NCBI GenBank assembly: GCA_027492915.1
Contig: JAPUDW010000327.1
Span: 92,366-156,365, forward strand
Origin: Bacteroidota bacterium
GTDB lineage: Bacteria > Chloroflexota > Anaerolineae > Aggregatilineales > Phototrophicaceae
Length of the DNA stretch: 64,000 nucleotides
Direction of reading: 5' to 3'
In this document: positions 6,297 through 38,701 of the stretch, in pieces
How the letters are laid out: every line of letters begins with the position of its first letter
Numbering within the stretch: the first letter of the stretch is position 1
The notes under the pieces: generated by a model
What the model was told of the DNA's origin: nothing
What the model saw: only the letters and a program-made list of their open reading frames with translations
The model's database searches: none
Program-made: the position numbers and the translations under genes

Positions 6297-6749
6297 ATGT
6301 TTAACAACATCCTTGGAAAACAAAGAGTCCTGTTTCTCTGTTCCAGCAACTCAGCCCGTTCACAAATGGCCGAAGCCCTACTTCGTCACTATGCAGGCGA
6401 CAGATTTGATGTTTATAGTGCTGGCCTCACTGCAACTGGCGTTAATCCACACGCAATCCGGGCTATGGATGAAATCGGCATTGATATACGCGGTCAACGC
6501 TCCAAAGATACAAAGGAATATATGGGGCGGGTATTTTTCCATTATGTCATAATCGTTTGCAGTATGGATGATAAGTCATGTCCGAAAGCTCTGTGGGCGC
6601 AAGGGGGTCAAAAACTGCCTTGGCCGTTTGATGATCCCGCTGAGGCAACCGGAAGTGAGGAGGAAATCATGGCAAAATTTCGCCAAGTCCGTGACCAAAT
6701 AGCGACGCGCATTCAGACGTGGTTAGCATCCGAGCAAGTACCCTCCTGA
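6297..6749 (+). CDS. arsC: Arsenate reductase, thioredoxin-coupled (LMW-phosphatase fold), copy 1
   Basis: A 150-residue cytoplasmic enzyme reducing arsenate to arsenite. It has the P-loop CSSNSARS (Cys15 to Arg21, CX5R) and the paired redox cysteines Cys88 and Cys95 in VCSMDDKSCP. Spacing of seven residues matches the Cys82/Cys89 shuttle of the Bacillus-type ArsC, so thioredoxin is the likely electron donor. ATG 6297 is the first gene after the inverted repeat. Its TGA overlaps the next ATG (TGATG at 6747-6751), showing translational coupling. It is the first of three reductases in one operon. Confidence 0.88.
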   Translation: MFNNILGKQRVLFLCSSNSARSQMAEALLRHYAGDRFDVYSAGLTATGVNPHAIRAMDEIGIDIRGQRSKDTKEYMGRVFFHYVIIVCSMDDKSCPKALWAQGGQKLPWPFDDPAEATGSEEEIMAKFRQVRDQIATRIQTWLASEQVPS

Positions 6750-7504
6750 TGACCATACAACCAGTGCAACCACTACCTGAATTTATTCGTTTACTGGCTC
6801 ACAATGTACGATGGGCAATACTCAAAGCGCTCACCATAGGCGATCATCGCGTACAAGAATTGGTCGCATTGGTGAATGAACCGATGAACCTTGTTTCGTA
6901 TCACCTCAAAAAGCTCCGTGATGATGCAATAGTCACAACACGTCGTTCAGAAGCAGACGGGCGCGATATTTACTATAGCCTTGACCTCAACCGGTTACGT
7001 CAGATGTATTTCGACGCTGGAACGGCACTGCATCCGGCTATTGGTATGAATGTGCAGTCTATTGATGTATCACGGCTTGAACGCAAACGTATCCTGTTTG
7101 TCTGCACCCATAACAGCGCTCGTTCACAAATGGCAGAAGCACTCCTTCGACATCTGAGTCAAGGCTATGTCGATGTTTTCAGTGCAGGTAGTCAGCCAAC
7201 AACTGTTCATCCTGATGCCATTCTTACAATGGACACTTTGGGGATCGAAATCAGAAACCAAGTTGCGCGTCCATTAAGCGATTTTGCTGAACAGTCATTC
7301 GACTATGTGATAACCGTGTGTGACAAAGCGCGTGAAGTTTGCCCAACTTTCCCCGGTGAAGGCCAGCAAATCCATTGGGGCTTTCCAGACCCTGTTGTGA
7401 TCGACGACAGCACAGAACGTATCGAGGCTTTTGAGGAAATCGCCAACCAACTGCAATCACGAATTCGTCTCTTTCTAACGACAGTTGCAAAGGAGAGTGC
7501 ATGA
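6749..7504 (+). CDS. arsC: ArsR-ArsC fusion: winged-helix domain plus arsenate reductase
   Basis: A 251-residue two-domain protein. Residues 8-100 form an ArsR-type helix-turn-helix (VSYHLKKLRDDAIV), and 112-250 form an LMW-phosphatase-fold arsenate reductase with Cys119-X5-Arg125 and redox cysteines Cys191/Cys198. The HTH half has no obvious metal-binding cysteine pair, so regulation may depend on the reductase half or on its thiols. I use ATG 6749, which overlaps the previous stop; an in-frame GTG at 6719 would lie inside the upstream gene. Fusions of this kind are known in arsenic loci of actinobacteria and related groups. It could repress its own operon at 6261-6288 (inference). Confidence 0.85.
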   Translation: MTIQPVQPLPEFIRLLAHNVRWAILKALTIGDHRVQELVALVNEPMNLVSYHLKKLRDDAIVTTRRSEADGRDIYYSLDLNRLRQMYFDAGTALHPAIGMNVQSIDVSRLERKRILFVCTHNSARSQMAEALLRHLSQGYVDVFSAGSQPTTVHPDAILTMDTLGIEIRNQVARPLSDFAEQSFDYVITVCDKAREVCPTFPGEGQQIHWGFPDPVVIDDSTERIEAFEEIANQLQSRIRLFLTTVAKESA

Positions 7505-7941
7505 AAAAGCGTGTCCTCATTTTGTGTACCCATAATTCATCTCGTTCGCAGATGGCTGAAGGACTCCTTCGGTATTTAGCAGACGATACGATAGAGGTCT
7601 TCAGCGCTGGCTCAGAACCATCATCAGTCAACCCTTACGCTGTTCAAGCAATGACGCTTTTGGGGATCGACATTAGGAGGCAGTCTTCAAAGTCGTTGAG
7701 CATCTATTTGAGTCAACCCTTCGATTATGTCATCACCGTATGTGATACGGCTGCTGAAAATTGTCCCTTCTTTCCGGGCAAGGCAGAACGTATTCATTGG
7801 AGTTTTCCTGATCCCTCATCTGTTAAAGGGACTGACCAAGAACGGTTAGCAGCTTTTATTACTGTTCGTGACGGTTTAAAGCAGCAGCTTTCGGATTGGA
7901 TTTCCGCGCGGGCACTCGAAACATCTCAGCAAATAAACTAA
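7501..7941 (+). CDS. arsC: Arsenate reductase, thioredoxin-coupled, copy 3
   Basis: A 146-residue single-domain reductase with the P-loop CTHNSSRS (Cys9 to Arg15) and redox cysteines Cys81/Cys88 in VCDTAAENCP. All three catalytic cysteines are present. It resembles the catalytic half of the preceding fusion protein more than copy 1, which suggests local duplication. The start overlaps the previous stop by ATGA. Together the three genes give the cell redundant arsenate reductases, perhaps with different electron donors or expression; the sequence does not tell them apart functionally. Confidence 0.87.
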   Translation: MKKRVLILCTHNSSRSQMAEGLLRYLADDTIEVFSAGSEPSSVNPYAVQAMTLLGIDIRRQSSKSLSIYLSQPFDYVITVCDTAAENCPFFPGKAERIHWSFPDPSSVKGTDQERLAAFITVRDGLKQQLSDWISARALETSQQIN

Positions 7942-7951
7942 GGAAAAACTC

Positions 7952-8677
7952 TTGGAATACATCACGATTTTTGGCGATATTCACGCTAATTTACCTGCGC
8001 TTGAGGTCGTCCTAACCGATATGGATGAACGCCATTTACAAAATCGCTATTGTTTGGGTGATTTAGTCGGCTATGGCACGTTTCCCAACGAAGTCACATC
8101 AGCTATCCGTTCATCTGGTGTCCCGTGCATCATGGGAAACTACGATCAAGGCGTAGGCAATGACAGCGATGATTGCGGTTGCGCTTATAAAACAGAAGTT
8201 GAAGAGGAACGTGGTAAACGCTCTATTGCGTGGACAAACGCGCATACAACCGCCAACAATAAGCAGTTTCTTCGGGAACTCCCTGCCCATATACCGCTTC
8301 AACTGGGCAACCGCCGCGTCCTTATAGTTCACGGCAGCCCACGCAAGATTAATGAATATCTCTATGAGAATCGTCCTGACAGCAGTTTTGAACACCTACT
8401 GGATACAACGAATATAGAAGTGCTGATTTGTGGGCATACCCACCTTCCCTATCACAAAGTATTGCCGAGTGGTCGTCACGTCATTAATGCAGGAAGTGTG
8501 GGGAAACCAAAAGATGGCGATAATCGTGCCTGCTACGTGGTGGTTTCAATAGAAGGGGAACGCCTAACCGCTGAGTTTGAGCGAGTGCCTTACGATATTG
8601 AACGGGCAGTACAGGCGATTGAAGCCAGCGATATGCCCCATGAATTTGCAGCGATGCTGCGAGAAGGAAAAGGATAA
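7952..8677 (+). CDS. Calcineurin-like metallophosphoesterase
   Basis: A 241-residue cytoplasmic phosphoesterase of the YfcE/MJ0936-like group. The metal-binding blocks are in order: GDIHAN near the N-terminus, GDLVGYG, GNYDQG, a central HGSPR, then CGHTHLPY and NAGSVGKPKDGD. These give the usual two-metal site for phosphodiester or phosphomonoester hydrolysis. The start is TTG 7952, ten bases after the arsC stop and preceded by AAGGA. Its place between arsenate reductase and aquaporin genes suggests a role linked to arsenate or phosphate stress, for instance removing arsenylated or phosphorylated metabolites. The substrate is unknown and the link is inference. Confidence 0.85.
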   Translation: MEYITIFGDIHANLPALEVVLTDMDERHLQNRYCLGDLVGYGTFPNEVTSAIRSSGVPCIMGNYDQGVGNDSDDCGCAYKTEVEEERGKRSIAWTNAHTTANNKQFLRELPAHIPLQLGNRRVLIVHGSPRKINEYLYENRPDSSFEHLLDTTNIEVLICGHTHLPYHKVLPSGRHVINAGSVGKPKDGDNRACYVVVSIEGERLTAEFERVPYDIERAVQAIEASDMPHEFAAMLREGKG

Positions 8678-9334
8678 TTGAAATCATCATTGCTGCGCCA
8701 AGCAGGAGCAGAACTCGTTGGTACTTACGCTTTGGTCACGGCGGGCTGCGGGGCAATCATGGTCAATGCTCAAACGGGCGAATTAGGACATGTAGGTGTA
8801 TCGCTGACCTTTGGATTGATAATTCTGGTTATGATCGCCGCTGTCGGGCATATCTCTGGCGCTCACTTCAATCCTGCCGTAACCATAGCCTTTGCCATAA
8901 CTCGCCATTTTCCTTGGCGCAATGTTTTTATCTATGTCACGGCTCAAATAGTGGGTGCTGTTTTAGGCGCAATGACTCTACGCTTTTTGATTGGTGATGT
9001 TGCTGGACTTGGTGTAACCCTTCCATCCGCTTCAATTGGGCAGTCCTTTGGGATGGAAAGCCTGCTCTCGGCGGTGCTCATGTTCGTAATTATCTCAGTT
9101 GCGACGGATACAAAGGCAGTCGGCGCACCCGCAGCCCTTGCCATTGGATTTACAGTTGCATTGGATGCCTTATGGGGTGGGCCGATCACTGGCGCTTCAA
9201 TGAACCCGGCTCGTTCGTTTGGTCCTGCTCTGATTGCTGGCATTTGGTCTAATCAGTGGGTTTATTGGATAGCTCCTGTTGTTGGAGCCGGTATCGGAGC
9301 AATTCTCTATCAATTGCTCCGAGAACCAACCTGA
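8678..9334 (+). CDS. MIP-family aquaglyceroporin (AqpS-like arsenic channel)
   Basis: A 218-residue channel with six membrane helices and both pore motifs: HFNPAVT (NPA 65-67) and MNPARS (NPA 176-178, with the selectivity-filter Arg179). The start is TTG 8678, directly after the previous TAA and preceded by AAGGA. Aquaglyceroporins in ars operons (AqpS type) let arsenite or methylarsenicals leave down their gradient and can replace ArsB/Acr3. No ArsB or Acr3 gene is seen here, which supports that role. The five plus-strand genes from 6297 appear to be one operon. An imperfect CCAAC/GTTGG hairpin follows at about 9346. Confidence 0.85.
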   Translation: MKSSLLRQAGAELVGTYALVTAGCGAIMVNAQTGELGHVGVSLTFGLIILVMIAAVGHISGAHFNPAVTIAFAITRHFPWRNVFIYVTAQIVGAVLGAMTLRFLIGDVAGLGVTLPSASIGQSFGMESLLSAVLMFVIISVATDTKAVGAPAALAIGFTVALDALWGGPITGASMNPARSFGPALIAGIWSNQWVYWIAPVVGAGIGAILYQLLREPT

Positions 9335-9905: not shown

Positions 9906-9978
9906 TTGTATTCTCCTTGTTTCAGCGCGATAAAACTCTTCTAACCCTCTTGGCAAACCAAGGTAAAGGGGCTAGAAT

Positions 9979-10006
9979 ATATCATTACATGCTGATGTAA
10001 TGATAT
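9979..10006. promoter_or_regulatory. Operator of the first CmtR-like repressor
   Basis: ATATCATTACAT and ATGTAATGATAT form a perfect 12-bp inverted repeat around GCTG, 11 bp before ATG 10018. It is the expected binding site for the repressor encoded just downstream and lies between two divergent genes, so it may control both. Confidence 0.72.
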
Positions 10007-10017
10007 GTCGAGGTTTT

Positions 10018-10356
10018 ATGATCCTTCAAGCCCAAGTTAGTGCAGTAGAACTACAAGCAAAACTCTTCCGGGGATTTGGTGATCTTTCTCGCCTAACCAT
10101 TTTAGATACGCTCCGTAAGCGCCCAATGACAGTGACACAAATCGTTGAGGCAACGGGCCTCACCCAATCCAATACCTCTAATCACTTAAGCTGCTTAAAG
10201 GACTGCGGCTTAGTGGTTTCTCACCAAGATGGGCGCAAAGCAATCTATGAACTCAGTGATCCGCGTGTTGGACAACTATTAGATATAGCCGATGAATTAT
10301 TAGCAGACGTAGCAAAAGGTGTCTATGCCTGTACCCACTATGGAGAAGAGGAATAA
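10018..10356 (+). CDS. CmtR-like ArsR-family metal sensor, copy 1
   Basis: A 112-residue repressor. The recognition helix carries SNHLSCLKDCGLV, with two cysteines four residues apart, and a third cysteine near the C-terminus (VYACTHY). This three-cysteine pattern is that of the Cd(II)/Pb(II) sensor CmtR, so soft divalent ions are the likely inducer. ATG 10018 follows GAGG; the earlier in-frame ATG at 10000 lies inside the operator. The start also aligns residue for residue with the second CmtR-like protein at 22882. The P1B ATPase begins 5 bp after its stop, so the pair forms a sensor-exporter unit. Confidence 0.87.
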   Translation: MILQAQVSAVELQAKLFRGFGDLSRLTILDTLRKRPMTVTQIVEATGLTQSNTSNHLSCLKDCGLVVSHQDGRKAIYELSDPRVGQLLDIADELLADVAKGVYACTHYGEEE

Positions 10357-10361
10357 TATAA

Positions 10362-12515
10362 ATGGCACAATTGCTAACGGTACAATTGCCAGTGCAAGGT
10401 ATGGAATGTGCCCATTGTACGCAAACAGTCCAAAATGCAATCGCCCAAGTACCCGGTGTCCATTCGGTTCAAGTCTTGTTATCGAGCGAACGGGCAACTA
10501 TTACCCTTGATCCTGCTCAAACCGATATGCCTGCCATTCGCAAGGCTGTGGCCGATGCAGGCTATACCATCCCCGTTGAAACGACGAAAGAGGCACTTCC
10601 AGAAGCTAATTCCTTTACCAAACGTGTGCTTACCTTGTTTGGCATCGTGTTTGCCATTGTCTTATTCGTGGTTGTGTTTGGAGAATGGCTTGGTCTTTTT
10701 GATACCCTCACGGATCACGTACCATTTCCCATTGGTGTAGTCATTGTCATTCTGGCTGGGTTTCCCATTTTTCGGAATGTAATCCAAGCAGCACTGCGGC
10801 GGCAAATTATCTCTCATACGCTGATGACCTTGGGCGTGTTAGCGGCCCTAGCTATTGGGCAATGGGCAACCGCTGCCGTGATTGTCCTCTTTATGCGTGT
10901 CGGCGAGTATGCCGAACACTTCACGACAGAAAAAGCACGACAAGCGGTTAAAGGGCTGACCAATCTTGCTCCGCAAACTGCTCGTGTTGAACGCGAGGGA
11001 GAAAGTGTTGACCTGCCAATTGAAAAGGTCGTCATTGGAGATGTGGTAGTCGTGCGTCCCGGTGAAGTTATTCCGGTTGATGGTAAGGTAGTGAGTGGTC
11101 ACGCGACCATCAATCAAGCCACAATTACCGGTGAAGCAATACCTGTAGAGGCAGGAATTGGTGCAACTGTCTTTGCTGCAACTATTGCAACTCTTGGGAG
11201 CCTGCGCGTACAAACAACCCGCATCGGTAAAGACACCACCTTTGGCCGCGTGATTACGATGGTTGAAGAAGCCGAAGCCCATCGCGCGGATGTGCAACGC
11301 ATTGCGGATAAGGCATCTGCATACTATTTGCCAGTAGTCGCCGGTATTGCCCTCTTAACCTTCCTCATTCGCCGTGATCCACTCGCAACAGCAGCGGTCC
11401 TGGTCGTAGCCTGTTCTTGTTCCTTTGCCTTAGCAACACCGATTGCAATGTTGGCAACCATTGGTGCAGCTGCCAAACGCGGCTTACTGATTAAGGGCGG
11501 GAAGTACATTGAAATCTTGGCAAAAGCGGATGTGTTGTTACTAGACAAAACGGGGACCCTCACGCTCGGCAAACCACAGGTCACAGATGTGATTGCATTG
11601 ACCAGCTTGCCTGATACGGAGGTATTAGCCCTAGCTGCCTCTGCTGAACGCTATTCCGAGCATCCCCTCGCTGAAGCAGTCCGCCGTGCCGCAAAGGAGC
11701 GCAAGCTAACCATTGCCGAACCAGAGCGCTTTACTGCTCTTCCCGGTATAGGCATACAGGCACAAATTCAAGGTCAGATGATTGAAGTCGGAAGCCATCG
11801 CATTTTGGGGAGTGAGGCTATCCCACTTGCGGCACAGAAACTTGAAGGGCAAGGAAAAACCCTGCTCTATATCACCATTGCTGGTAAACCGGTGGGCGTG
11901 CTAGCCGCTTCAGATACCATGCGTGATGAGGTTCCTGCGGCCTTGAAAGCCGTCAAAGCACAGGGAATTAGTCACATTGAACTGTTGACCGGGGACAATG
12001 AGCGTAGCGCTTCAACACTAGCGACCCAGCTTGGCATTTCGTATCGAGCTAATCTGCTTCCGGAGCATAAAATTGCCATCGTCAAAGAGTATCAATCCCA
12101 AGGTCATACAGTAGTTATGATCGGCGATGGGGTGAATGATGCCCCTGCCCTCGCTCAAGCCAATATTGGGATCGCAATGGGCGTTGCTGGTACAGATATT
12201 GCCATTGAAGCTGCTCATGTGGCGCTGATGCGTGAAGATTGGTCACTCATTCCGGATGTGTTTGCGATAGCGAAACGCACGATGGGTGTTGTCCGGTTTA
12301 ATATCGGTTTTACCATCGTCTACAACATTATTGGGCTTATCTTGGCGGCTTTAGGTATTTTGCCCCCCATTCTGGCAGCAGCCGCCCAATCGCTTCCCGA
12401 TTTAGGCATTCTTGCAAACTCATCACGGTTGCTTCGGTATCGGGAGCAACAAGCTAAGACAAATACAGTAGCTGTAGTATCTCACGTCGATATAGATAAA
12501 ATAGCTGTCACATGA
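10362..12515 (+). CDS. P1B-type metal ATPase with Cys-Ser-Cys transport motif
   Basis: A 717-residue metal-exporting ATPase. Residues 8-70 are one HMA domain with Cys16-X2-Cys19. Motifs are the phosphorylated Asp395 (DKTGTLT), SEHPLAEA, and [10 protein letters not shown]. The actuator loop reads TGEA in place of the usual TGES. The transmembrane metal motif is CSC (residues 351-353, ACSCSFALATP) in place of CPC, losing the helix-breaking proline. The last helix has QSLPDLGILANSS, with an Asp where Zn/Cd ATPases have one. I recall CSC being described for a small P1B subgroup, but its substrate is not established to my knowledge. CmtR-type control favours Cd, Pb or a similar ion. Confidence 0.88.
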   Translation: MAQLLTVQLPVQGMECAHCTQTVQNAIAQVPGVHSVQVLLSSERATITLDPAQTDMPAIRKAVADAGYTIPVETTKEALPEANSFTKRVLTLFGIVFAIVLFVVVFGEWLGLFDTLTDHVPFPIGVVIVILAGFPIFRNVIQAALRRQIISHTLMTLGVLAALAIGQWATAAVIVLFMRVGEYAEHFTTEKARQAVKGLTNLAPQTARVEREGESVDLPIEKVVIGDVVVVRPGEVIPVDGKVVSGHATINQATITGEAIPVEAGIGATVFAATIATLGSLRVQTTRIGKDTTFGRVITMVEEAEAHRADVQRIADKASAYYLPVVAGIALLTFLIRRDPLATAAVLVVACSCSFALATPIAMLATIGAAAKRGLLIKGGKYIEILAKADVLLLDKTGTLTLGKPQVTDVIALTSLPDTEVLALAASAERYSEHPLAEAVRRAAKERKLTIAEPERFTALPGIGIQAQIQGQMIEVGSHRILGSEAIPLAAQKLEGQGKTLLYITIAGKPVGVLAASDTMRDEVPAALKAVKAQGISHIELLTGDNERSASTLATQLGISYRANLLPEHKIAIVKEYQSQGHTVVMIGDGVNDAPALAQANIGIAMGVAGTDIAIEAAHVALMREDWSLIPDVFAIAKRTMGVVRFNIGFTIVYNIIGLILAALGILPPILAAAAQSLPDLGILANSSRLLRYREQQAKTNTVAVVSHVDIDKIAVT

Positions 12516-12593: not shown

Positions 12594-13370
12594 ATGACAG
12601 ATAGCACGACATCTTTGACTGCCAATGCCCAACCTATACGTTCATCAAAACGGATGAGAACGTTTGTCCATGCCCTTTTATTTGTGTTGGGGTTCTCCCT
12701 CACATTTATTGTGGGTTGGGGAGGTGCATTTACCTTCATCGGACAGATGTTTACCCACTATAAGTTACTGCTTGGTCAGATCGGTGGGATTGTGATTATT
12801 GTGTTTGGCCTATTTAATCTCGGTATCGTCAAAATCGCTCCGTTGAATTATGACACTCGACCACAGCTAGATATTGCCAGTCATACCGGATTTGTACCTT
12901 CTATTCTGATGGGAGTCTTTTTTGCGGCTGGTTGGACACCCTGTATTGGAACGACGCTCGGTGCAATTTTGACATTGGGTTTTAGCCAAGAGACAGTAGG
13001 CCAAGCAATAGTCTTATCCAGCGGGTATTCGCTTGGCTTAGGAATACCGTTTCTCATTATTGGTTTGGGAATAGATCGGGCAACACATCTTGTGGGGCGG
13101 TTTCGACGACATATCCGTACACTTCAGATTGCTAGCGGTTTGCTGCTTATCATGATTGGTATTTTGCTCCTCACAAAACAAATGACAGTGATTGCCATTT
13201 GGGCGCAAAGTTACGGTCTCTATATTGATTTGCCAATGGGAGGAGGCACTACTCCCTCCTATCTCATTGCTATCCTTGGTGGCTTATTATCATTTCTTTC
13301 TCCCTGTGTGCTCCCACTTGTCCCGGCATACGTCGGGTATTTGAGCGGGCAAGCTGTGAGAGAACTATGA
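12594..13370 (+). CDS. CcdA-type thiol-electron transporter, circularly permuted, copy 1
   Basis: A 258-residue, six-helix membrane protein. Every CcdA block is present but the order is shifted. It begins with the normal second helix (FVHALLFVLGF, 24-34), then IGGIVIIVFGLFNLG, the fourth-helix AAGWTPCIG (Cys117), SLGLGIPFLIIG and SGLLLIMIGILLLT. It ends with the normal first helix, GLLSFLSPCVLPLVPAYVGY (Cys238). CcdA passes reducing equivalents from cytoplasmic thioredoxin to outside thioredoxins. With six helices a permutation keeps topology possible, and the basic N-terminus (SSKRMR) suits a cytoplasmic end. The start is ATG 12594 after GGAG. The gene lies between the ATPase and a small gene plus TlpA. 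A gap-free paralogue is at 26918. Confidence 0.85.
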   Translation: MTDSTTSLTANAQPIRSSKRMRTFVHALLFVLGFSLTFIVGWGGAFTFIGQMFTHYKLLLGQIGGIVIIVFGLFNLGIVKIAPLNYDTRPQLDIASHTGFVPSILMGVFFAAGWTPCIGTTLGAILTLGFSQETVGQAIVLSSGYSLGLGIPFLIIGLGIDRATHLVGRFRRHIRTLQIASGLLLIMIGILLLTKQMTVIAIWAQSYGLYIDLPMGGGTTPSYLIAILGGLLSFLSPCVLPLVPAYVGYLSGQAVREL

Positions 13371-13486
13371 CACCAAATTCTAGGCAAAAAAATATTCGCC
13401 GAATGAATAACCTGTTCTTTGCAAAATCCGAGGAAGGCTATTATGAAGAAATTGGGGTTAAAGAAGTGATGCAGTCAACTGTATGA
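13367..13486 (+). CDS. Small 39-codon gene coupled to ccdA and tlpA
   Basis: The ATG at 13367 overlaps the ccdA stop (ATGA), and its TGA at 13484-13486 overlaps the tlpA ATG at 13483 (again ATGA). The product begins MTPNSRQKNIRRMNN and ends EIGVKEVMQSTV: a basic N-terminal third, then an acidic middle. It has no membrane helix, no cysteine, and no domain I recognise. Four-base overlaps at both ends are hard to explain by chance and suggest either a real small protein or a coupling leader that feeds ribosomes into tlpA. The second ccdA and tlpA copies are not joined by such a gene. Confidence 0.5.
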   Translation: MTPNSRQKNIRRMNNLFFAKSEEGYYEEIGVKEVMQSTV

Positions 13487-14046
13487 ACGATCTTCAAGAA
13501 GCCCCAACCCTTGCTGAGCGGCGGCTTTCTACAGTCGGTTCTGTTATTCTCCTCACTGGTATTATTGTTGCAATCATTGTATTTGGTCTCGCTCTCGCTC
13601 GGCGCAATGAAACTCAACCAAAAGCTGGCCCTGCGCCTGATTTCACGCTCACAACATTTACTGGAGAACAACTTCGCCTCTCTGAACAGCAAGGAAAAGT
13701 TGTGGTGATTAACTTTTGGGCAAGCTGGTGCATTCCCTGCCGCACTGAGGCTCCTGCTTTACAAGCAACATGGGAGCGCTACAAAGACAAAGGCGTACTA
13801 TTCGTTGGCGTGGATTATACGGATACCGACGACAATGCACGGGCATTCATCAAAGAATTTGGGATTACCTACCCCAACGGGCCAGATATAGGAATTAAGA
13901 TTTTTACGGCGTATCGCGTGCAGGGTGTCCCAGAAACCTTTATCATAGATCAACAGGGTAATGTGACTCAATTTTTATTTGCTGGAGTGAACGAGAAACA
14001 ACTCAGCAGCGCGATAGATCCGTTACTCGTTCAAAGAGATGAATGA
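13483..14046 (+). CDS. Membrane-anchored TlpA/ResA-like thioredoxin, copy 1
   Basis: A 187-residue protein with a short cytoplasmic N-terminus, one signal-anchor helix (about 17-39) and an outside thioredoxin-like domain of the AhpC-TSA/TlpA type. The redox site is WCIPC (Cys83/Cys86) and the cis-proline loop is GVPETFII. Such proteins receive electrons from CcdA and reduce disulfides in apocytochromes or copper-site proteins. It follows the permuted CcdA, its expected partner. A close paralogue with the same length of anchor and the same sequence around the start codon is at 31635, so the two arose by duplication. Confidence 0.88.
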   Translation: MNDLQEAPTLAERRLSTVGSVILLTGIIVAIIVFGLALARRNETQPKAGPAPDFTLTTFTGEQLRLSEQQGKVVVINFWASWCIPCRTEAPALQATWERYKDKGVLFVGVDYTDTDDNARAFIKEFGITYPNGPDIGIKIFTAYRVQGVPETFIIDQQGNVTQFLFAGVNEKQLSSAIDPLLVQRDE

Positions 14047-20094: not shown

Positions 20095-22218
20095 TTACGA
20101 GCGCAGCATCCGTAAGCCGCTGCCAATCACAATAAATTCGCTGATTTCATGACCTAAAACGGCTATCGGAAGTGTAAATATTCCGGTTAACGCACCGATC
20201 ACAAGCGCCCCGATAACCACTGCTGAAAGCACCAGATTTTGGTTGACCACCGATGCGTTCCGCTTGGCAAGCGACAACGCGTAGACGAGCTTTTCCAAGT
20301 CATCTGCCATAAGCGCCACATCCGCTGTTTCCAAAGCAACATCCGTGCCCGCCGCGCCCATCGCAATGCCGACACTGGCTTCTGCCAAGGCAGGGGCATC
20401 ATTGACCCCATCGCCAACCATCGCTACCTGCCCATACTGCGCTGCCAGTTCACGGACACGGGTGACTTTATCCTCCGGTTTTAAATCAGCATAAAAGCTA
20501 TCGACTCCGACTTCGTGAGCAATGGCCTGTGCTGTGCGTTGGTTGTCACCTGTCAGCATGACGACTTTGACACCAGCAGCGTGCAGGCGCTCCACCGCTT
20601 TTCGAGCATTGGGACGGATGGTGTCACGGATGGCAATTAAGCCCCACGCTGCGTGGGTATCTCCAATGACAATGACCGTTTTGCCTTCACTCTGTAAACG
20701 GGTAATCTGGGCTGTACTGTCAGCCAAACTGATCTTGAGCTGACCTTCAAAGTAATCAGGACTACCCGCATAGAGCGTGGAACCATTGAACTGTCCCATA
20801 ATCCCCGCTCCGGTCATCGACTGAAAATCGGTAATGTCGGCTGGCTGGATGGTTTTAGCCTCAGCATAGCGGGTGATGGCGAGCGCTAACGGGTGTTGAC
20901 TGCGCCGCTCCAGACCAGCAGCAACAGCCAGTAAATCTGGCTCTGACCGCATACCGGTAGTGGGATTTGAGCCAAGCACAAATACATCGGTTACTTCTGG
21001 TTCGCCCCGTGTCAATGTCCCGGTTTTATCGAGGGCCACCACTTTAATTTTAGATAGCGCTTCCACATATTTGCCGCCTTTAATAAGGACACCTTTACGC
21101 GCTCCGGTTCCGAGGGTGGCAACCATCGTAATCGGTATGGAAATGACCAGCGCACAGGGGGCAGCCGCAACAATGAATACAACCGCCCGTGTCAGCCAAG
21201 TGTGCCAGTCACCACCCAACAACAGAGGGGGTACAACCGCAAACAATATACCAATGCCGAGCACGGCAGGACTATACACATGACCAAACCGTTCGATGAA
21301 GCGCTGACTGTTGCCCTTCTTTTCTTGGGCTTCCTCGACCATATGAATAATCCGGGCAATCGTGTTGTCAGCAAAGGTCTTGGTGGCACGCACTTCTAGT
21401 GCTCCCTCGCCATTGATACTTCCGGCAAAGACCTGTTCATCAACGTGTTTTTCAACCGGTATACTCTCACCGGTTACCGGAGCTTGATTGACACTAGAGG
21501 TTCCTAAAATGACCATGCCATCCGTCGGAATAGATTGACCGGGTTTAACGATGAACACATCATCAACGGCCAGTTCTTCTACCGGAATTTCCACCTCTCG
21601 TCCATCCCGTTTGACGAGGGCGACCTTTGGGGTTAAATCCATCAAAGCTCGGACAGCCGAACGGGTCTTTTCTTCGGTATAGCCTTCAGCCGCTTCCGAT
21701 AGAGAGTACAGGAAGACCAACATCGCAGCCTCGGCTGGTTCCCCCAGCAAAAGTGCTGCCACTGCTGCAATGAGCATAAGCAGTTCAATCCCGACTTCGC
21801 GCTCATGGATCAGTTCTTCGAGGGCTTCACGGCCAAAGTAGTAACCGCCAATGACAACGGCCCCAATATAAATACCGGTGGTCACGAGACCCGGTACTGC
21901 GGTTTGACTGAGGAGCCACCCGACAAGCAGCAGGACACCCGCAATAACGGCAGTAATGACTTTGGGATTACGCCAAATTTTGGGCTGCTGCGGCACACTG
22001 CGTCCTGCTTGGGGTGGAAAACCCAAGGTATCTAACTTTTCCCGTAGCATCTCAGGAGAAGCACTTGCGGGATCATATTGAAATGATACTTTGGCGGACT
22101 TCGGATAGACCCGCAGTTGGACACGCTCGGCTATATCCGCAAATCCGCGTTCGATAGCCGCTGCGTCATGCTCGCAGTCTAAATTGCCAACATAGACATC
22201 AAATTGGGCGCTTTTCAT
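20095..22218 (-). CDS. P1B-type metal ATPase with Ala-Pro-Cys motif (P1B-4-like)
   Basis: A 707-residue metal exporter. The N-terminal 70 residues have an HMA-like fold in which the CXXC site is reduced to NLDCEHD (Cys15, His17). The transport motif is AAAPCALVIS (APC, 353-355), and the last helix has GHEISEFIVIGSGLR. A His-Glu pair there is the signature of the P1B-4 (Co/Zn/Cd/Fe) ATPases, whose usual membrane motif is SPC. Catalytic blocks are TGES, DKTGTLTRGEPEV (Asp397) and [10 protein letters not shown]. It is the last gene of an operon with a CmtR-like sensor and a 73-residue membrane protein, so a soft or borderline divalent ion is the likely cargo. Confidence 0.88.
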   Translation of the reverse strand: MKSAQFDVYVGNLDCEHDAAAIERGFADIAERVQLRVYPKSAKVSFQYDPASASPEMLREKLDTLGFPPQAGRSVPQQPKIWRNPKVITAVIAGVLLLVGWLLSQTAVPGLVTTGIYIGAVVIGGYYFGREALEELIHEREVGIELLMLIAAVAALLLGEPAEAAMLVFLYSLSEAAEGYTEEKTRSAVRALMDLTPKVALVKRDGREVEIPVEELAVDDVFIVKPGQSIPTDGMVILGTSSVNQAPVTGESIPVEKHVDEQVFAGSINGEGALEVRATKTFADNTIARIIHMVEEAQEKKGNSQRFIERFGHVYSPAVLGIGILFAVVPPLLLGGDWHTWLTRAVVFIVAAAPCALVISIPITMVATLGTGARKGVLIKGGKYVEALSKIKVVALDKTGTLTRGEPEVTDVFVLGSNPTTGMRSEPDLLAVAAGLERRSQHPLALAITRYAEAKTIQPADITDFQSMTGAGIMGQFNGSTLYAGSPDYFEGQLKISLADSTAQITRLQSEGKTVIVIGDTHAAWGLIAIRDTIRPNARKAVERLHAAGVKVVMLTGDNQRTAQAIAHEVGVDSFYADLKPEDKVTRVRELAAQYGQVAMVGDGVNDAPALAEASVGIAMGAAGTDVALETADVALMADDLEKLVYALSLAKRNASVVNQNLVLSAVVIGALVIGALTGIFTLPIAVLGHEISEFIVIGSGLRMLRS

Positions 22219-24440: not shown

Positions 24441-24485
24441 GGTAGGATTTGTAATTTGCTTGGATCTTTATGAGTGGGTAAGTAC

Positions 24486-25160
24486 ATGCGCGATTTTGTT
24501 ACGTACATTTCTAACCTACATCTCACACAAGTTGGGATTTGTGTATCTTTGTGTGTAGCTGGTCTGGTTCTCACCAACTGCACAACATCGTCGCAAGCCG
24601 CTTATTCATCAACATTTTATGAGGGTACTCAACTAGATGGCCTGGCTCCTGATTTCAAGCTTACAGACCAAAATAACCAAGTCATCTCGCTACACGATTT
24701 GAAAGGGAGTATCGTCGTATTAACATTTTTGGATAGCCAATGCCAAGATGTATGTCCATTGACATCCGCTCAACTGATAAAGACCAATCAAGCTCTTGGG
24801 ACTACCGCTGACTCTGTTACTTTTCTCAGTGTGAATGTCAATGAAAAAGCCAACACTTCAGAAGATGTAAGGCTGGCAAGCCAGCAGTGGCATTTGGATG
24901 AGATTAAAACATGGCATTTCTTAACCGGAAGTTCCGCCCAGTTGAAACCGATTTGGAAATTTTACAATATTGAAGTAGAGACCTCATCGGAACCTAAAAG
25001 TGAATTACTCCATACGATGGGAGTCTATTTGATCGACAAAAATAGACAATTTAGCTGGTACATTTCGCCTCCCTTTGTTGGAGTGGATACCCCTGCGCCT
25101 TCCTTACCTCTAAATGAATTACTCGTGAAGCATATACAAGAACTTTTACTCAGCAAATAA
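24486..25160 (+). CDS. SCO1/SenC-type copper chaperone, lipoprotein or membrane-anchored
   Basis: A 224-residue exported thioredoxin-fold protein. The SCO copper site is complete: Cys86-X3-Cys90-Pro (CQDVCP) and His176 in LLHTMGVYLID. SCO proteins deliver copper to cytochrome oxidase CuA or keep its cysteines reduced. The N-terminal hydrophobic stretch ends at a cysteine (VLTNC, Cys32); Asn before the cysteine is unusual for a lipobox, so anchoring by an uncleaved helix is also possible. The start is uncertain: ATG 24486 is chosen over a GTG at 24474. It begins the envelope run controlled by BlaI. No cytochrome oxidase gene is in the window. Confidence 0.82.
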   Translation: MRDFVTYISNLHLTQVGICVSLCVAGLVLTNCTTSSQAAYSSTFYEGTQLDGLAPDFKLTDQNNQVISLHDLKGSIVVLTFLDSQCQDVCPLTSAQLIKTNQALGTTADSVTFLSVNVNEKANTSEDVRLASQQWHLDEIKTWHFLTGSSAQLKPIWKFYNIEVETSSEPKSELLHTMGVYLIDKNRQFSWYISPPFVGVDTPAPSLPLNELLVKHIQELLLSK

Positions 25161-25175
25161 TTCTTACATTACACA

Positions 25176-26138
25176 ATGACAAAAAAAACTTCATCCAACA
25201 AACAAGCAAAGAGCAAAAACCTGATCAATAGGAGCGTAGCGATTAGCGCGTTAGCGCTTTTTGTTGTTCTCTTCAGCCTCTGGTATTTCACCAATAGGCC
25301 ATCCACTGACAATACTCAAAATGTTCAATTTGCCCACTTGCACGGTATGGGGTTTTCCTCAAATGGTGGTCAACTCTTCGTGACAGCTCATGATGGTTTC
25401 AGGGTTTATGAAAAAGGCCGTTGGCTAATCCCAGATCTTCCCATCAACGATTATATGGGTTACAGCCCTACTAATAGCGGTTTTTATAGCAGCGGTCATC
25501 CTGGGCCAGCATCTAAACAAATTAATCCTCTAGGTTTAGTGAAAAGTACCGATGGTGGTCAGACACTCACTGCATTGGGATTTGTCGGTCAAAGTGACTT
25601 TCACTTAATGGGCGTTGGATACGAAACGCACGCCATATATGTTTTAAGTCCCGAGAGAAACGCAATCCTCAACGTCGGATTATCTTACAGCCTTGATGAT
25701 GGAAAGACTTGGCATCAAAGTCAAGCTGGTGGGGTGGTTGGCAACATACTTCAGATCGCGGTTCATCCAACGAAAGATAACATTGTTGCACTCGCAACTG
25801 ACGGTGGATTATTCCTATCCACTGATTATGGTCAAAAATTCAGCCAGATTAGCAACACTATCCCTGTAACGTCAGCTTCATTTGCTCCAACAGGAAATCA
25901 TCTATTTTTTGGCTACCAAAATGTATATGCTCACGACCTGATGACAGGAAAAACTGATGCCTTAAAAAGCCCCACAATCACTGGCAATGATGCAATCGCT
26001 TACATTGCGGTTAATCCAATATCCGGTGAGATTGCCATTGCCACTTTCAGTAAGGACATGTATCTGTCTAACGATCAGATTCAATCTTGGAAACAAATTG
26101 CGCAACAGGGGACTGGCAAAAACGAAGTATCTGGCTAG
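25176..26138 (+). CDS. F510_1955-type exported BNR-repeat propeller
   Basis: A 320-residue protein with an N-terminal anchor helix (about 20-40) and a propeller carrying Asp-box-like turns: STDGGQT, SLDDGKTW and STDYGQKF. The segments AHLHGMGFS, DYMGYS, FYSSGHPGP and NPLGLVKSTDGG match the family annotated as F510_1955 glycosylhydrolase, often found beside copper and thiol genes. Glycosidase activity has not been demonstrated for the family as far as I know. The conserved histidines (HLHG, SGHP, DFHLMG) could bind metal. It begins 15 bp after the SCO gene and ends 5 bp before the next start, so co-transcription is clear. Confidence 0.75.
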   Translation: MTKKTSSNKQAKSKNLINRSVAISALALFVVLFSLWYFTNRPSTDNTQNVQFAHLHGMGFSSNGGQLFVTAHDGFRVYEKGRWLIPDLPINDYMGYSPTNSGFYSSGHPGPASKQINPLGLVKSTDGGQTLTALGFVGQSDFHLMGVGYETHAIYVLSPERNAILNVGLSYSLDDGKTWHQSQAGGVVGNILQIAVHPTKDNIVALATDGGLFLSTDYGQKFSQISNTIPVTSASFAPTGNHLFFGYQNVYAHDLMTGKTDALKSPTITGNDAIAYIAVNPISGEIAIATFSKDMYLSNDQIQSWKQIAQQGTGKNEVSG

Positions 26139-26143
26139 TTAGA

Positions 26144-26869
26144 ATGAGAGCGCTTGAATTGAAACTTGAACCCAGAATCATAAAGCCACAGTACAAACAA
26201 AGTACTTTTCCTTTTATTGTAATCGGACTACTTGTGCTGGGTCTTGTTGCCAGTTTTGCCTTCATCTATTTTTCAAATCTCTTGCCCAGTTCAAATACTT
26301 CTGCGACACTTATATTCACCGCAGGAACAAGGTTGTCAATGACAGCAAATCATCTTGAACCCACCAATACGCTCGGTGTCAAAGCCCCTCTCGTTATTGA
26401 AGCCTTACCAACTTCAATCTCCTATCCGCTTCCAAGTCTAGCAATAGGTCAACCAGCTCCCAATTTCACGCTCAATAATTTAGAGGGTAAGAGGGTTTCC
26501 CTCTCGGATTATGCCGGACAGGTGGTGCTAATCAATTTCTGGGCAAGTTGGTGTCAGCCCTGCCGCGTTGAAACCCCTGAATTAGTAAAAGCATATGAAA
26601 CGTACCGAAAAAATGGCTTTGCGATTCTAGGTGTAAATTTAACTGATCAAGATCAAATGCCTGACATAACGGCATTTGTGGGGGAATTTCATGTGTCCTA
26701 TCCAATTTTGCTGGACTCTGAGGGAACTGTTTCAAACAAACTTTACTATTATCCCGGCATACCCATGAGTGTATTTGTAGATCGGAAGGGGAATATTGAT
26801 CAAGTACAAATCGGTGCAATGTCGAAACAGCAGATTGAAGATGGCGTAAATGCCTTATTAAAGAAATGA
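26144..26869 (+). CDS. TlpA/ResA-like membrane-anchored thioredoxin, copy 3 (longer linker)
   Basis: A 241-residue protein with an anchor helix (about 22-45), an outside linker of some 55 residues and a TlpA-type thioredoxin domain with WCQPC (Cys137/Cys140), NLTDQDQMPDI and GIPMSVFVD. ATG 26144 is 5 bp after the preceding stop. It differs from the two close TlpA paralogues (13483, 31635) in its redox-site dipeptide, QP against IP, and in the long linker, so it may serve another substrate. The permuted CcdA immediately downstream is its probable electron source. Confidence 0.85.
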   Translation: MRALELKLEPRIIKPQYKQSTFPFIVIGLLVLGLVASFAFIYFSNLLPSSNTSATLIFTAGTRLSMTANHLEPTNTLGVKAPLVIEALPTSISYPLPSLAIGQPAPNFTLNNLEGKRVSLSDYAGQVVLINFWASWCQPCRVETPELVKAYETYRKNGFAILGVNLTDQDQMPDITAFVGEFHVSYPILLDSEGTVSNKLYYYPGIPMSVFVDRKGNIDQVQIGAMSKQQIEDGVNALLKK

Positions 26870-26917
26870 ACAAATGAAGCCAAAAACCAACTCCTTAACC
26901 AGCAAAGAAACGTGACT

Positions 26918-27694
26918 ATGACCGATAGCGCTCCATTTTCGTCTGCAAATGCTCTTAATATGGGTTCATCAAAACGGATGAGAACTTTTGTCCACGCCAT
27001 TCTATTTGTGTTGGGATTCTCTATCACATTCGTTGTTGGCTGGGGAGGGGCATTCACGGTCGTCGGACAGATTTTTAGCGAATATAAATCACTGTTAGGG
27101 CAGATTGGTGGGATCGTCATTATTGTATTTGGTCTGTTTAATCTGGGTATCGTCAAAATTGAATCTTTAAATTATGACACGCGACCTCAGCGGAATGCTG
27201 GTCACCGCTCTGGAGTAGCGTCATCGCTTTTAATGGGAGTCTTTTTCGCCGCCGGGTGGACACCCTGTATTGGAACAACATTGGGCGCAATCTTGACTCT
27301 AGGTTTCAGCCAGCAGACGGCAGGGCAAGCGATGGTATTGTCCAGTGGATATTCACTCGGACTGGGAATCCCTTTTTTGATTATCGGTTTAGGAATAGAC
27401 CGTGCAACCCATTTAGTGGGCCGGTTCCGACGACATATTCGTAAACTTCAGATTGCCAGCGGTTTGCTCCTTATCCTGATTGGCGTATTACTCTTGACGA
27501 ACCAGATGTCGGTGATTTCCATTTGGGCGCAACGTTACGGCCTCTATATTGATTTGCCGCTAGGGGGAGCAAGCACCCCGAACTATCTCATCGCAATCAT
27601 TGCCGGATTATTGTCATTTCTTTCGCCCTGTGTTTTACCGCTTGTCCCGGCATATGTTGGGTATCTAAGCGGGCAAGCTGTTAGAGAAATGTGA
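26918..27694 (+). CDS. CcdA-type thiol-electron transporter, circularly permuted, copy 2
   Basis: A 258-residue membrane protein that aligns without gaps to the copy at 12594. It has the same shifted order: FVHAILFVLGF first, AAGWTPCIG (Cys117) third, and GLLSFLSPCVLPLVPAYVGY (Cys238) as the last helix. The number and spacing of residues are unchanged, and the two redox cysteines of CcdA are retained. The start ATG 26918 matches the start of copy 1; a GTG six bases upstream is possible. Its stop overlaps the start of the DUF2085 gene (GTGA). Substitutions between copies are mostly conservative, so both are probably functional. Confidence 0.85.
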   Translation: MTDSAPFSSANALNMGSSKRMRTFVHAILFVLGFSITFVVGWGGAFTVVGQIFSEYKSLLGQIGGIVIIVFGLFNLGIVKIESLNYDTRPQRNAGHRSGVASSLLMGVFFAAGWTPCIGTTLGAILTLGFSQQTAGQAMVLSSGYSLGLGIPFLIIGLGIDRATHLVGRFRRHIRKLQIASGLLLILIGVLLLTNQMSVISIWAQRYGLYIDLPLGGASTPNYLIAIIAGLLSFLSPCVLPLVPAYVGYLSGQAVREM

Positions 27695-28488
27695 TTGAGA
27701 AGTATATGGCAGATCAAGCAGTTATCGAACGAACGACCATTTCATCCCAACGCACAACGAAAGCGCTTCGTGCCATATTGTGGGGTCTCGATCATTGGAT
27801 TATTATCCTTTCAGTCGGAATGGGAGTGCTGGTCATTGCGCCGTTCCTCGCCCCACTTTTCATGCACGTAGGTTGGACGGTTCCAGCCCAATTCATTTAT
27901 GGCATTTACAGCACCTTGTGCCATCAAATGGCTCAGCGATCCTATTTCCTATTTGGTTCACAACCGATGTACAACATGGCTCAATTGCCCCTTCCGCTTA
28001 CGGGGAAAATGCTGTCCGACACCCTGTTACTACGCGGATTTATCGGCAACGACAACCTTGGTTGGAAGGTAGCATGGTCAGATCGTATGGTCTACATGTA
28101 TGGGGGAATATGGATTGTAGGCATGGTCTATGGATTGTTACGTCAGCGTCGTCGTATTCGCTCCTTGAACATCATTGTACTGGGTTTATTGCTTCTGCCC
28201 ATGCTTGTTGACGGACTAACCCACACGCTGAGTGACCTATCCGGTGGGTTAGCAAGTGGCTTCCGCTACAACAATTCTTGGCTTGCCGAACTGACGGCAA
28301 ATCGGCTACCGAGTTGGTTCTATGTGGGTGATGCTTTTGGCTCTTTTAACTCATGGATGCGTCTCATCAGTGGAATAACGTTCGCAGTTGGTATCGTCTG
28401 GTTTGCCTATCCTTACATTAACCAAGCTCTGACCGAGTCGGCAGAAAAACTGCGCTGGAAGCTCATGAATGCCACGAACGTCACTTAA
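27691..28488 (+). CDS. DUF2085 membrane protein
   Basis: A 265-residue polytopic protein. The diagnostic DUF2085 block is STLCHQMAQRSYFLFG (near residue 75), followed by the arginine-containing RMVYMYGGIW helix and LPMLVDGLTHTL. The conserved Cys-His-Gln and the later His suggest a metal or heme site in the membrane, but the function of the family is unknown. Four or five hydrophobic helices are visible. It begins with GTG 27691 overlapping the ccdA stop; an ATG at 27706 is an alternative start. Its coupling to CcdA and its place in a copper/thiol run suggest that it takes part in envelope metal or redox handling. Confidence 0.72.
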   Translation: MIEKYMADQAVIERTTISSQRTTKALRAILWGLDHWIIILSVGMGVLVIAPFLAPLFMHVGWTVPAQFIYGIYSTLCHQMAQRSYFLFGSQPMYNMAQLPLPLTGKMLSDTLLLRGFIGNDNLGWKVAWSDRMVYMYGGIWIVGMVYGLLRQRRRIRSLNIIVLGLLLLPMLVDGLTHTLSDLSGGLASGFRYNNSWLAELTANRLPSWFYVGDAFGSFNSWMRLISGITFAVGIVWFAYPYINQALTESAEKLRWKLMNATNVT

Positions 28489-28529
28489 AAATTTAAGTCT
28501 TATGCTCCAATAGAAAGCGAAAGAATGCG

Positions 28530-29303
28530 GTGAACCAGCACGATAAAGTTCAAGAGCAATTCAATAAGCAAGCAGCCATTTTCAGTCAACAGCCAACGAT
28601 TGCGAACCCGGATTATACGCAGTGGATGCTGGATCATATTGAGTTGAAACCAGAAGACAAGGCACTCGATGTCGCGGCAGGCACAGGCCATTTCAGTCGT
28701 GCAATTGCGCCTTATGTGCGACAAGTGACCGCGCTGGACTTAACCAAGGCAATGATTGAACAGGGAAAACTCGAAACGCAGAAAGCCGGTCTTACCACTG
28801 TCCATTTTGAACAAGGTACTGCTGAAAATCTACCTTTTCCTGATGCCGTTTTTGATCTGGTCGTGACTCGGTTTTCGCTGCACCACTTTGAAAAACCCTC
28901 TGAAGCTCTGCTCGAAATGCATCGTGTGCTGAAGGTCGGTGGACGAATTGCAGTCATTGATTTGGTGAGTCCAGACAACCTCGAACTCGCGGAAACGTAC
29001 AACCATTTTGAGCGTCTGCGTGATCCTTCGCATACGACTGCTTTTGCTCCCCAGGCACTGATAAATATAGTAGCTGAGGCAGGATTTGACGAGGTGCATG
29101 GAACAGCGCGAGACATTGAGGTTGATCTGACACGCTGGCTCAATTTAACGCAAACGCCACCTGAAGCAAGAAAGCTCATCCAAGATAACGTTGGAGCCGA
29201 ACTAAGAGATGGCAACATGACCGGGATGCGACCTTTTAGGCACGACAATACGGTCATGTTTCTGCATAGGTGGATGGTTGTAACAGGTATCAAAAAATCA
29301 TAA
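28530..29303 (+). CDS. Class I SAM-dependent methyltransferase (UbiE-like)
   Basis: A 257-residue cytoplasmic methyltransferase. Motif I is LDVAAGTGHFS, followed by VTALDLTKAMIEQ, a DLVVTRFSLHHFEKP motif IV region and RVLKVGGRIAVIDLV. It contains no cysteine at all, which rules out an ArsM-type arsenite methyltransferase that needs several. The acceptor may be a small molecule or quinone. The start is GTG 28530 in the 41-bp gap after DUF2085, without a strong ribosome site. The presence of two different methyltransferases in the BlaI-led run is unexplained. Confidence 0.82.
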   Translation: MNQHDKVQEQFNKQAAIFSQQPTIANPDYTQWMLDHIELKPEDKALDVAAGTGHFSRAIAPYVRQVTALDLTKAMIEQGKLETQKAGLTTVHFEQGTAENLPFPDAVFDLVVTRFSLHHFEKPSEALLEMHRVLKVGGRIAVIDLVSPDNLELAETYNHFERLRDPSHTTAFAPQALINIVAEAGFDEVHGTARDIEVDLTRWLNLTQTPPEARKLIQDNVGAELRDGNMTGMRPFRHDNTVMFLHRWMVVTGIKKS

Positions 29304-29352
29304 CCCAGTCGAATTCCGTAAAAATCAATCGAGATTAACAAAGTAAGTTAAT

Positions 29353-30213
29353 ATGGCATCTGATCCCACTATCCAACAACCAATTGGCGATCAAGAAAAG
29401 TTAGTCCCTGAAATTATACCTGAGCAATTACCAAGTCCCTATGCAGAAGAGGGTGCGCTCATTGTTATTCCAAGAACAACTTTCAATTACGTGATTATTG
29501 GACTGGCTTGTCTGGCTGTTGGTATTCTGCTCGGCACAACAGTCTTTAATCCAATGCGCGGTAACGAACTTACCCTTCAGACGATTTCCCAAGCAGTCGC
29601 AGATGGAATCAGTAAGTCGCCAACCGTGCAAACGGCACAAAATCAGGCGGTGCCGCAAAATATTAACGTCAGTGCCGACGACGACCCTTTTTGGGGGCCT
29701 AAAGATGCACCTGTGACGATTGTTGAATTTTCCGATTTTCAATGTCCCTACTGTGGGCGCTTCCACAAGGACACCTATGAGCAGCTTCGCAAAAATTATG
29801 AGGGCAAAATTCGGTTTGTCTATCGTGATTTTCCAATACTGAGCTTACATCCTTATGCGGAAGTTTCCGCTCAAGCCGCAGATTGTGCCAACGAGCAAGG
29901 AAAATACTGGGAATATCATGATCTATTGTTGAGCAATCAAGACAAATATCTTCCAGCCGACTTAACTAATTTTGCTTCTCAACTCAATTTAGATGGGACA
30001 GCATTCACAACATGTATAAGTACTGGACGCTACAAGCAGGAAATCGCCAAAGATGTCCAAGACGGTGAAAGCTATGGCGTTACCGGAACACCCACATTCT
30101 TTATTAACGGTCAAGCACTCGTTGGGGCACAGCCCTACACCGTTTTTGCATCAGCGATTGACGCGGAATTGGCAAAGGCAAACACGTCTGAAACAATACT
30201 TGCACCCGGATAG
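29353..30213 (+). CDS. Membrane-anchored DsbA-like thiol oxidoreductase
   Basis: A 286-residue protein with a cytoplasmic N-terminal tail, one anchor helix (about 45-65) and an outside DsbA-like domain (Thioredoxin_4/DSBA family). The redox site is CPYC (Cys131/Cys134) in FSDFQCPYCGRF and the cis-proline loop is GVTGTPTFFING. Two further cysteines (AADCANE and TTCISTG) may form a structural disulfide. Such proteins act as oxidases or isomerases with a vitamin K epoxide reductase-like partner; no such partner gene is seen. Set with TlpA and CcdA proteins, it gives the module both an oxidising and a reducing arm. Confidence 0.86.
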   Translation: MASDPTIQQPIGDQEKLVPEIIPEQLPSPYAEEGALIVIPRTTFNYVIIGLACLAVGILLGTTVFNPMRGNELTLQTISQAVADGISKSPTVQTAQNQAVPQNINVSADDDPFWGPKDAPVTIVEFSDFQCPYCGRFHKDTYEQLRKNYEGKIRFVYRDFPILSLHPYAEVSAQAADCANEQGKYWEYHDLLLSNQDKYLPADLTNFASQLNLDGTAFTTCISTGRYKQEIAKDVQDGESYGVTGTPTFFINGQALVGAQPYTVFASAIDAELAKANTSETILAPG

Positions 30214-30270
30214 TGTCGAGCTATGAGCATTTCACATCCTAACTTCGCTTCAAAAATTGGATAAAACAAC

Positions 30271-31341: not shown

Positions 31342-31390
31342 GTTTAAACGTAAAAACCCAACCCATCTAAAGGAGAAAGGTGGCAACAAC

Positions 31391-31612
31391 ATGATTAAAA
31401 AGAGGTTTCAAATTCAAGGGATGCATTGTGTCGCTTGTGCAATGACTATTGATGGGGCGATAGAAGATTTACCGGGAGTGAAGTCAGCGACGACACACTA
31501 CGCGCGACAGATTGTTGATGTGGAATACGATGACCGAAAACTGACCGATGACCAGATCATTATAGCTATTCAAGAGTCAGGGTATGAGGCCGTTGCAAAC
31601 AGTCGAGATTAA
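31391..31612 (+). CDS. copZ: CopZ-like copper chaperone (HMA domain)
   Basis: A 73-residue cytoplasmic HMA protein: MHCVACAMTIDGAIEDLPGV with Cys13 and Cys16, then a typical second half (VEYDDRKLTDDQIIIAIQESGYEA). It binds Cu(I) and hands it to ATPases or repressors. The start is ATG 31391, preceded by AAAGGAGAAAGG. It lies 49 bp after the DsbD_2-cupredoxin gene and 22 bp before a TlpA gene. A different HMA protein is encoded at 41914, so the window carries two stand-alone copper chaperones. Confidence 0.88.
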   Translation: MIKKRFQIQGMHCVACAMTIDGAIEDLPGVKSATTHYARQIVDVEYDDRKLTDDQIIIAIQESGYEAVANSRD

Positions 31613-31634
31613 AAAGAATTGATGTAGTCAACCA

Positions 31635-38628: not shown

Positions 38629-38701
38629 CGTATCATGCTAACAGTTTTCGTTTATCTTCAAACTGTTGAACTAAATGAGTAATTTCAATCAGGGAACTAG
38701 A

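Follow-up and report, generated by a model that had tools for sequence, protein, structure and literature searches.

An ArsR-type repressor, a P1B ATPase, a CcdA and a TlpA-like protein are encoded one after another in the 64,000-nucleotide stretch of DNA analysed here (the window), and these genes probably form a metal-induced export operon in which the thiol pair may be auxiliary. The pump lacks the proline of the CPC membrane metal motif and shares this trait with a large clade. This CSC pump is a new form within P1B that departs from the signatures of P1B-1 to P1B-5, and its most likely role is that of a Cd/Pb-type exporter under a CmtR-like sensor. The window is part of a 6.9-Mb draft genome of the phylum Chloroflexota.

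All four genes are co-directional. The first encodes an ArsR/SmtB repressor of the CmtR type (10000-10356, +), which, as judged from the sequence, is likely to be translated from the ATG at 10018. It stops 5 nt before the gene of the pump (10362-12515, +). A gap of 78 bp separates the pump from a circularly permuted ccdA (12594-13370, +), and 112 bp lie between ccdA and a tlpA-like gene (13483-14046, +). These two intergenic gaps were scanned for terminator-like sites, and none was detected. A perfect 12-nt inverted repeat, ATATCATTACAT-GCTG-ATGTAATGATAT, at 9979-10006 (strand-neutral) is a putative operator. It is unique within the 64-kb window, with a chance expectation of 0.01 matches. The repeat abuts a predicted sigma-70-like promoter (TTGGCA-17-TAGAAT; 9950-9978, +), although the number of such sites in the region equals that in shuffled sequences. 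Just upstream of the operon, 6297-9334 is probably an arsenic cluster; it includes a protein that combines an ArsR-type HTH with a low-molecular-weight phosphatase/arsenate-reductase-like domain (6719-7504), similar reductase-like genes at 6297 and 7501, and an aquaporin gene (8678-9334).

The pump ORF is intact and encodes 717 amino acids, in which HMA, E1-E2 ATPase and HAD hydrolase domains all exceed the Pfam cut-offs. It scored 545.6 bits against the NCBI general heavy-metal ATPase model TIGR01525, whose cut-off is 346. The features of a P1B heavy-metal ATPase were all found, namely E1-E2 plus HAD, DKTGT, TGE, and a metal motif in the helix that precedes the P domain. The membrane metal motif is CSC (aa 351-353; 11412-11420, +) and the actuator loop is TGEA (aa 256-259; 11127-11138, +), in agreement with the earlier note, which had regarded both as unusual. 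Serine does replace proline in CSC, but this is a trait of a whole clade and not of a single protein. C-[SAT]-C with both cysteines occurs in 53 other clade loci, which rules out a chance change or a sequencing error. The alanine of TGEA proved to be ordinary, and a functional oddity was ruled out: the fourth residue of TGEx varies among 33 clade representatives (S 20, A 8, P 4, F 1), and the solved ATP7B structure 7xuk likewise has TGEA.

In a phylum sample of 301 Chloroflexota genomes, matches to the pump at 46–67% identity formed a separate group, and other P1B pumps reached at most about 43%. The loci extracted, the window aside, had C-S-C (46), C-A-C (5) or C-T-C (2), and three sisters had CPC. 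The clade is found mainly in Chloroflexota and sporadically in other groups. Plasmid-borne members were found in Shinella, Diaphorobacter, Streptomyces and Mycobacteroides (56–63% identity). A scan of genome contigs with the pump alignment, which relied on motifs common to P-type ATPases, gave at least two more clade members beyond the phylum sample (L120 and L121), in an Armatimonadetes MAG (65%) and in Longimonas (52%). One Burkholderiales genome has a clade member, and a second, G352, has CPC sisters. At E 1e-145, no clade member was found in the genome samples of Alphaproteobacteria and of Actinomycetes; members do occur on plasmids from both groups.

A tree of 73 pumps was built by a quick method with SH-aLRT supports. 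The 33 rows without the proline formed one group (support 98), and the CPC rows were their sister (99). Because the proline-free rows are one group with CPC sisters, a single loss of the CPC proline at the base of the clade is probable. The clade was separate from both ZntA/CadA and CopA, and from the SPC and CPH rows, and it joined the CopA side with a support of 96 by this quick method. A P1B pump with CSC (VSCSCGLALSVP) was also observed at locus L093, outside the clade and in the part of the tree towards ZntA; therefore the proline change also happened independently elsewhere.

Both cysteines of the motif are invariant in the 33 clade representatives. N-x6-YN is present in TM7 throughout, with Y in 31 and F in 2, and Pro679-Asp680 and Asn686 are present in TM8 of 33 of 33. 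In the window pump the TM8 Pro-Asp (aa 679-680) lies at 12396-12401 (+). This pair is common to the CPC sisters; among the remaining 38 pumps, the two columns hold no Pro and one Asp. The Asp aligns with a serine of CopA and not with the aspartate of ZntA.

The P1B-1 signature consists of CPC, YN(x)4P in TM7 and MxxSS in TM8, that of P1B-2 consists of CPC, T(x)5QN(x)7K in TM7 and DxG(x)7N in TM8, and the substrates of P1B-6 and P1B-7 are undefined (PMC4932525). The clade has each of the first two signatures in part only. The window pump resembles P1B-1 (Cu+; CopA, ATP7B) in the TM7 N-x6-YN and in TGEA, which ATP7B also has, but differs in having CSC instead of CPC, YN without the P of YN-x4-P, QSLPD without MxxSS in TM8, and no adjacent copper-type regulator. 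It resembles P1B-2 (Zn/Cd/Pb; ZntA, CadA) in domain order, in the DCxxC-type N-terminal metal domain of most clade members, in the Cd/Pb/Zn-type regulators and in an acidic TM8 residue. It differs from P1B-2 in CSC, in YN replacing the TM7 lysine, in a DxG with another spacing to N, in the place of the TM8 Asp, and in belonging to a separate clade. P1B-3, P1B-4 and P1B-5 have a CPH, SPC or TPC-type motif, whereas the clade motif is C-[SAT]-C. Among the open-licence papers searched, none paired CSC with P1B ATPases. The CPC proline characterises the P1B metal site, and a large clade without it and with an invariant TM8 Pro-Asp is a natural experiment on the role of this proline.

The likely metal was assessed from the regulators and the metal-binding domains. 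The window ArsR has SCLKDCG and a C-terminal GVYAC, matching the C-x3-C in the DNA-recognition region of CmtR and its third cysteine near the C-terminus. Its score against NCBIfam NF047906 (CmtR) was 62.5 bits, under the cut-off of 150, and it is classed as CmtR-like and not as an equivalog. The earlier proposal of a CmtR-type Cd/Pb sensor was thus borne out by the cysteines, and such a sensor is the usual partner of the clade. An ArsR gene lies directly upstream on the same strand as the pump at 23 loci, including the window and two CPC sisters; 20 of these repressors are CmtR-type and three are CadC-type with ELCVC. Strict C-x3-C was found in 19 adjacent ArsR, and L083 has C-x3-C with one changed neighbour. 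Strict C-x3-C together with GVYxC was present in 14, and several more showed close variants.

In the MerR-type neighbours of the plasmid members, Cys takes the place of the Cu(I)-sensor Ser. By the CueR/ZntR rule, Cu(I) sensors have Ser where divalent-metal sensors have Cys. Most HMA domains in the clade carry GMDCxxC, a form that resembles ZntA. Soft divalent ions are favoured because of the Cd/Pb/Zn-type ArsR, the MerR-type Cys and the DCxxC-type HMA of most members. These motifs suggest that the pump is most likely a Cd/Pb/Zn-type divalent exporter, and this core of the best explanation is held with reasonable confidence.

The pump could instead be a Cu(I)/Ag(I) exporter, a relative of CopA in which CPC became CSC and which acts with TlpA and CcdA in extracytoplasmic copper handling. 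This reading is made possible by the TM7 motif, which is the N-x6-YN of Cu(I) pumps with the P1B-2 lysine absent, by the position of the clade nearer CopA in the quick-method tree, and by the neighbourhood of the Shinella plasmid members, which are surrounded by the copper-linked genes PCu(A)C, SCO and multicopper oxidase. The copper/thiol cluster from which the ccdA-tlpA copy probably came also speaks for copper, and the column of the TM8 Asp, at the CopA serine, speaks against the divalent-exporter reading. However, the adjacent ArsR are all of Cd/Pb/Zn types, YN-x4-P and MxxSS are both absent, and the MerR-type neighbours resemble divalent-metal sensors. A copper or silver exporter is rather unlikely.

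The divalent-exporter reading can be compared with the cmtR-pacL2-ctpG operon of M. tuberculosis, which has an APC-type pump and confers Cd tolerance (PMC13043812). In both, a CmtR-type repressor precedes a P1B pump whose TM6 motif is altered. CtpG has APC, with one Cys only, and is PacL2-dependent, and its operon is without ccdA-tlpA (PMC13043812, PMC9045314). The window pump has CSC, and its operon has the ccdA-tlpA pair.

Nothing else at the locus is as unusual as the permuted CcdA. Its helix order is TM2 to TM6 followed by TM1 with SPCVLPLVP, the first membrane helix having moved to the C-terminus, and not the standard TM1 to TM6. It gave two swapped matches to the ordinary CcdA profile, of 207.7 bits (residues 16-201 to model 45-229) and 46.5 bits (residues 222-256 to model 7-41). 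After rotation by 213 residues, a single match of 256.5 bits was obtained. The two redox-Cys motifs of DsbD_TM, in TM1 and TM4, are both present. PF02683 was matched at 41.6 bits, and the family profile matches 5vkv at 170 bits. Like CcdA (5vkv, 2n4x) and the DsbD membrane domain, the protein has a redox-Cys helix with SPCxxPLxP and another with W[TS]PC[IV]G, and it shares their set of membrane segments, but it differs in its C-terminal TM1 and in its probable topology. Both termini would be cytoplasmic in the natural topology, and the basic RSSKRMR close to the N-terminus agrees with this. The predicted structure had a modest pLDDT of 68; its best aligned chain was CcdA 5vkv (Z 6.1, 175 residues), which supports a CcdA fold weakly, and Foldseek with this model gave no match at E 0.001 or better. 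A truncated ccdA with a second copy running on was ruled out: no further CcdA sequence lies 3', and a second copy in the window and homologues within single contigs have the same layout.

The permuted order is common to 17 aligned proteins from several families, both window copies included. In G005 and G112, permuted CcdA lies within single contigs of 4.1–4.4 Mb. The Actinomycetota genome G1142 has a permuted CcdA (L235, 5495-6283) whose TM4 contains CIGCIG and whose C-terminus has SPCFFPLIP. Ordinary CcdA mostly match just TM2-TM6 of the window CcdA query, and the IMG/VR and Armatimonadota matches with readable helix order were ordinary CcdA. In the tree of rotated sequences the permuted forms did not all fall together (p-AU 0.044, borderline, with long branches present), so that more than one origin of the permutation is possible. 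Permuted CcdA-like proteins of another type were observed at L220 (8084-8920), L222 (7316-8200) and L223 (8105-8968), apart from the window form in the tree, and a second permutation event is possible for them. Permuted ccdA in related genomes often lies near genes for histidine kinases, response regulators, DsbA-like, rhodanese-like and TlpA proteins, and large P1B pumps; these neighbour names were read from the sequence, save those of the copper/thiol cluster in the window. The open-licence papers searched contained no description of a permuted CcdA. A naturally permuted six-helix electron transporter offers a direct test of CcdA folding and electron conduction, and of how the ends of a membrane protein switch sides.

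The product of 13483-14046 has the N-terminal anchor, the AhpC-TSA/Redoxin fold and the WCxxC, here WCIPC, of TlpA/ResA proteins. The Pfam AhpC-TSA and Redoxin models were matched over the cut-off, and the NCBIfam ResA model under it. Both thiol genes have second copies 14–18 kb away on the same contig: a permuted CcdA gene at 26912-27694 (+), 81% identical, and a TlpA-like gene at 31635-32201 (+), 82% identical. The second copies bracket a DUF2085 protein, a methyltransferase, a DsbA-like protein and a DsbD_2-cupredoxin fusion, and SCO1 and another TlpA precede the second ccdA in this copper/thiol cluster (24474-32201). In the fusion (30271-31341), a DsbD_2 transmembrane domain and a cupredoxin-like domain are found in one protein. 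The nucleotide match to the second ccdA starts immediately past the pump stop codon. Because such similar genes lie so near, the association of the pump with ccdA-tlpA looks recent and local, and the pair is probably a recent capture, a local addition. The simplest account would be a duplication from the copper/thiol cluster in which the genes between the pair were lost.

The DNA flanking the clade loci, up to about 10 kb and less on small contigs, was searched with CcdA of both the ordinary and the permuted kind and with several TlpA, DsbA-like and DsbB sequences. Within these flanks, ccdA was found in none of the 53 other non-Pro loci. DsbA/DsbB or TlpA within about 5 kb was found in six of the 53. 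In Diaphorobacter a DsbB and a DsbA-like gene adjoin the pump; their distance from it is 3–4 kb in Shinella and about 4 kb in L069, L072 and L073. TlpA lies 2.7 kb from the pump in L224, and L084 has a single weak TlpA match. The earlier note had tied the pump to CcdA-TlpA. The order pump-ccdA-tlpA on one strand stands, but it is no trait of CSC pumps. The note had also named a lack of thiol-redox neighbours at most CSC-type pumps as evidence against its idea, and such a lack is what the survey found.

The chance is nearly even that ccdA-tlpA is unrelated to the pump, being a chance copy with its own promoter and a general thiol-reduction module. The 81–82% identical copies elsewhere on the contig, the absence of ccdA from the other surveyed loci, and the gaps past the pump and before tlpA are in line with this. 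However, the two genes are both intact and on the same strand with no terminator-like site between, and other thiol-redox genes occur near the pump in the six loci, adjacent in one. A functional tie of the thiol pair to the same stress as the pump is proposed tentatively. A tightly coupled machine, in which the pump passes metal to thiols kept reduced by CcdA-TlpA, is very improbable. The operon-like order in the source genome and the DsbB and DsbA-like gene beside the Diaphorobacter pump agree with it, but the CcdA pairing occurs once in the clade and the pair is probably a recent copy. DsbA/DsbB pairs, moreover, usually oxidise thiols and do not reduce them.

In the preferred reading, an export operon with an auxiliary thiol pair, Cd(II), Pb(II) and perhaps Zn(II) would bind the CmtR-type repressor, the palindrome at 9979-10006 would be freed and the operon would be transcribed. 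A soft divalent ion would be held by the two TM6 cysteines, perhaps with the TM8 aspartate, and exported by the pump. The copied ccdA-tlpA behind the pump would be co-induced in the source genome. Electrons would flow from cytoplasmic thioredoxin through the permuted CcdA to the extracytoplasmic TlpA, which may keep or restore protein thiols blocked or oxidised by exported or external metal. The pair would serve an auxiliary repair function outside the pump cycle. A stronger form is a purpose-built unit, in which a P1B subgroup with proline-free CxC and the TM8 Pro-Asp exports Cd/Pb, and a CcdA permuted on more than one occasion, with both termini cytoplasmic, feeds TlpA for the regeneration of extracytoplasmic thiols hit by the same metals. 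This form is quite improbable.

Three further P1B-like pumps were observed less than 30 kb from the CSC pump, at 20095-22218, 36294-38465 and 38675-41242. The second of these has CPH, and the third has CPC and two HMA domains. A histidine kinase (44516-45583; HisKA_3, HATPase_c) with a C-terminal YHS domain adjoins a LuxR-type response regulator, and the two are possibly a metal-sensing two-component system.
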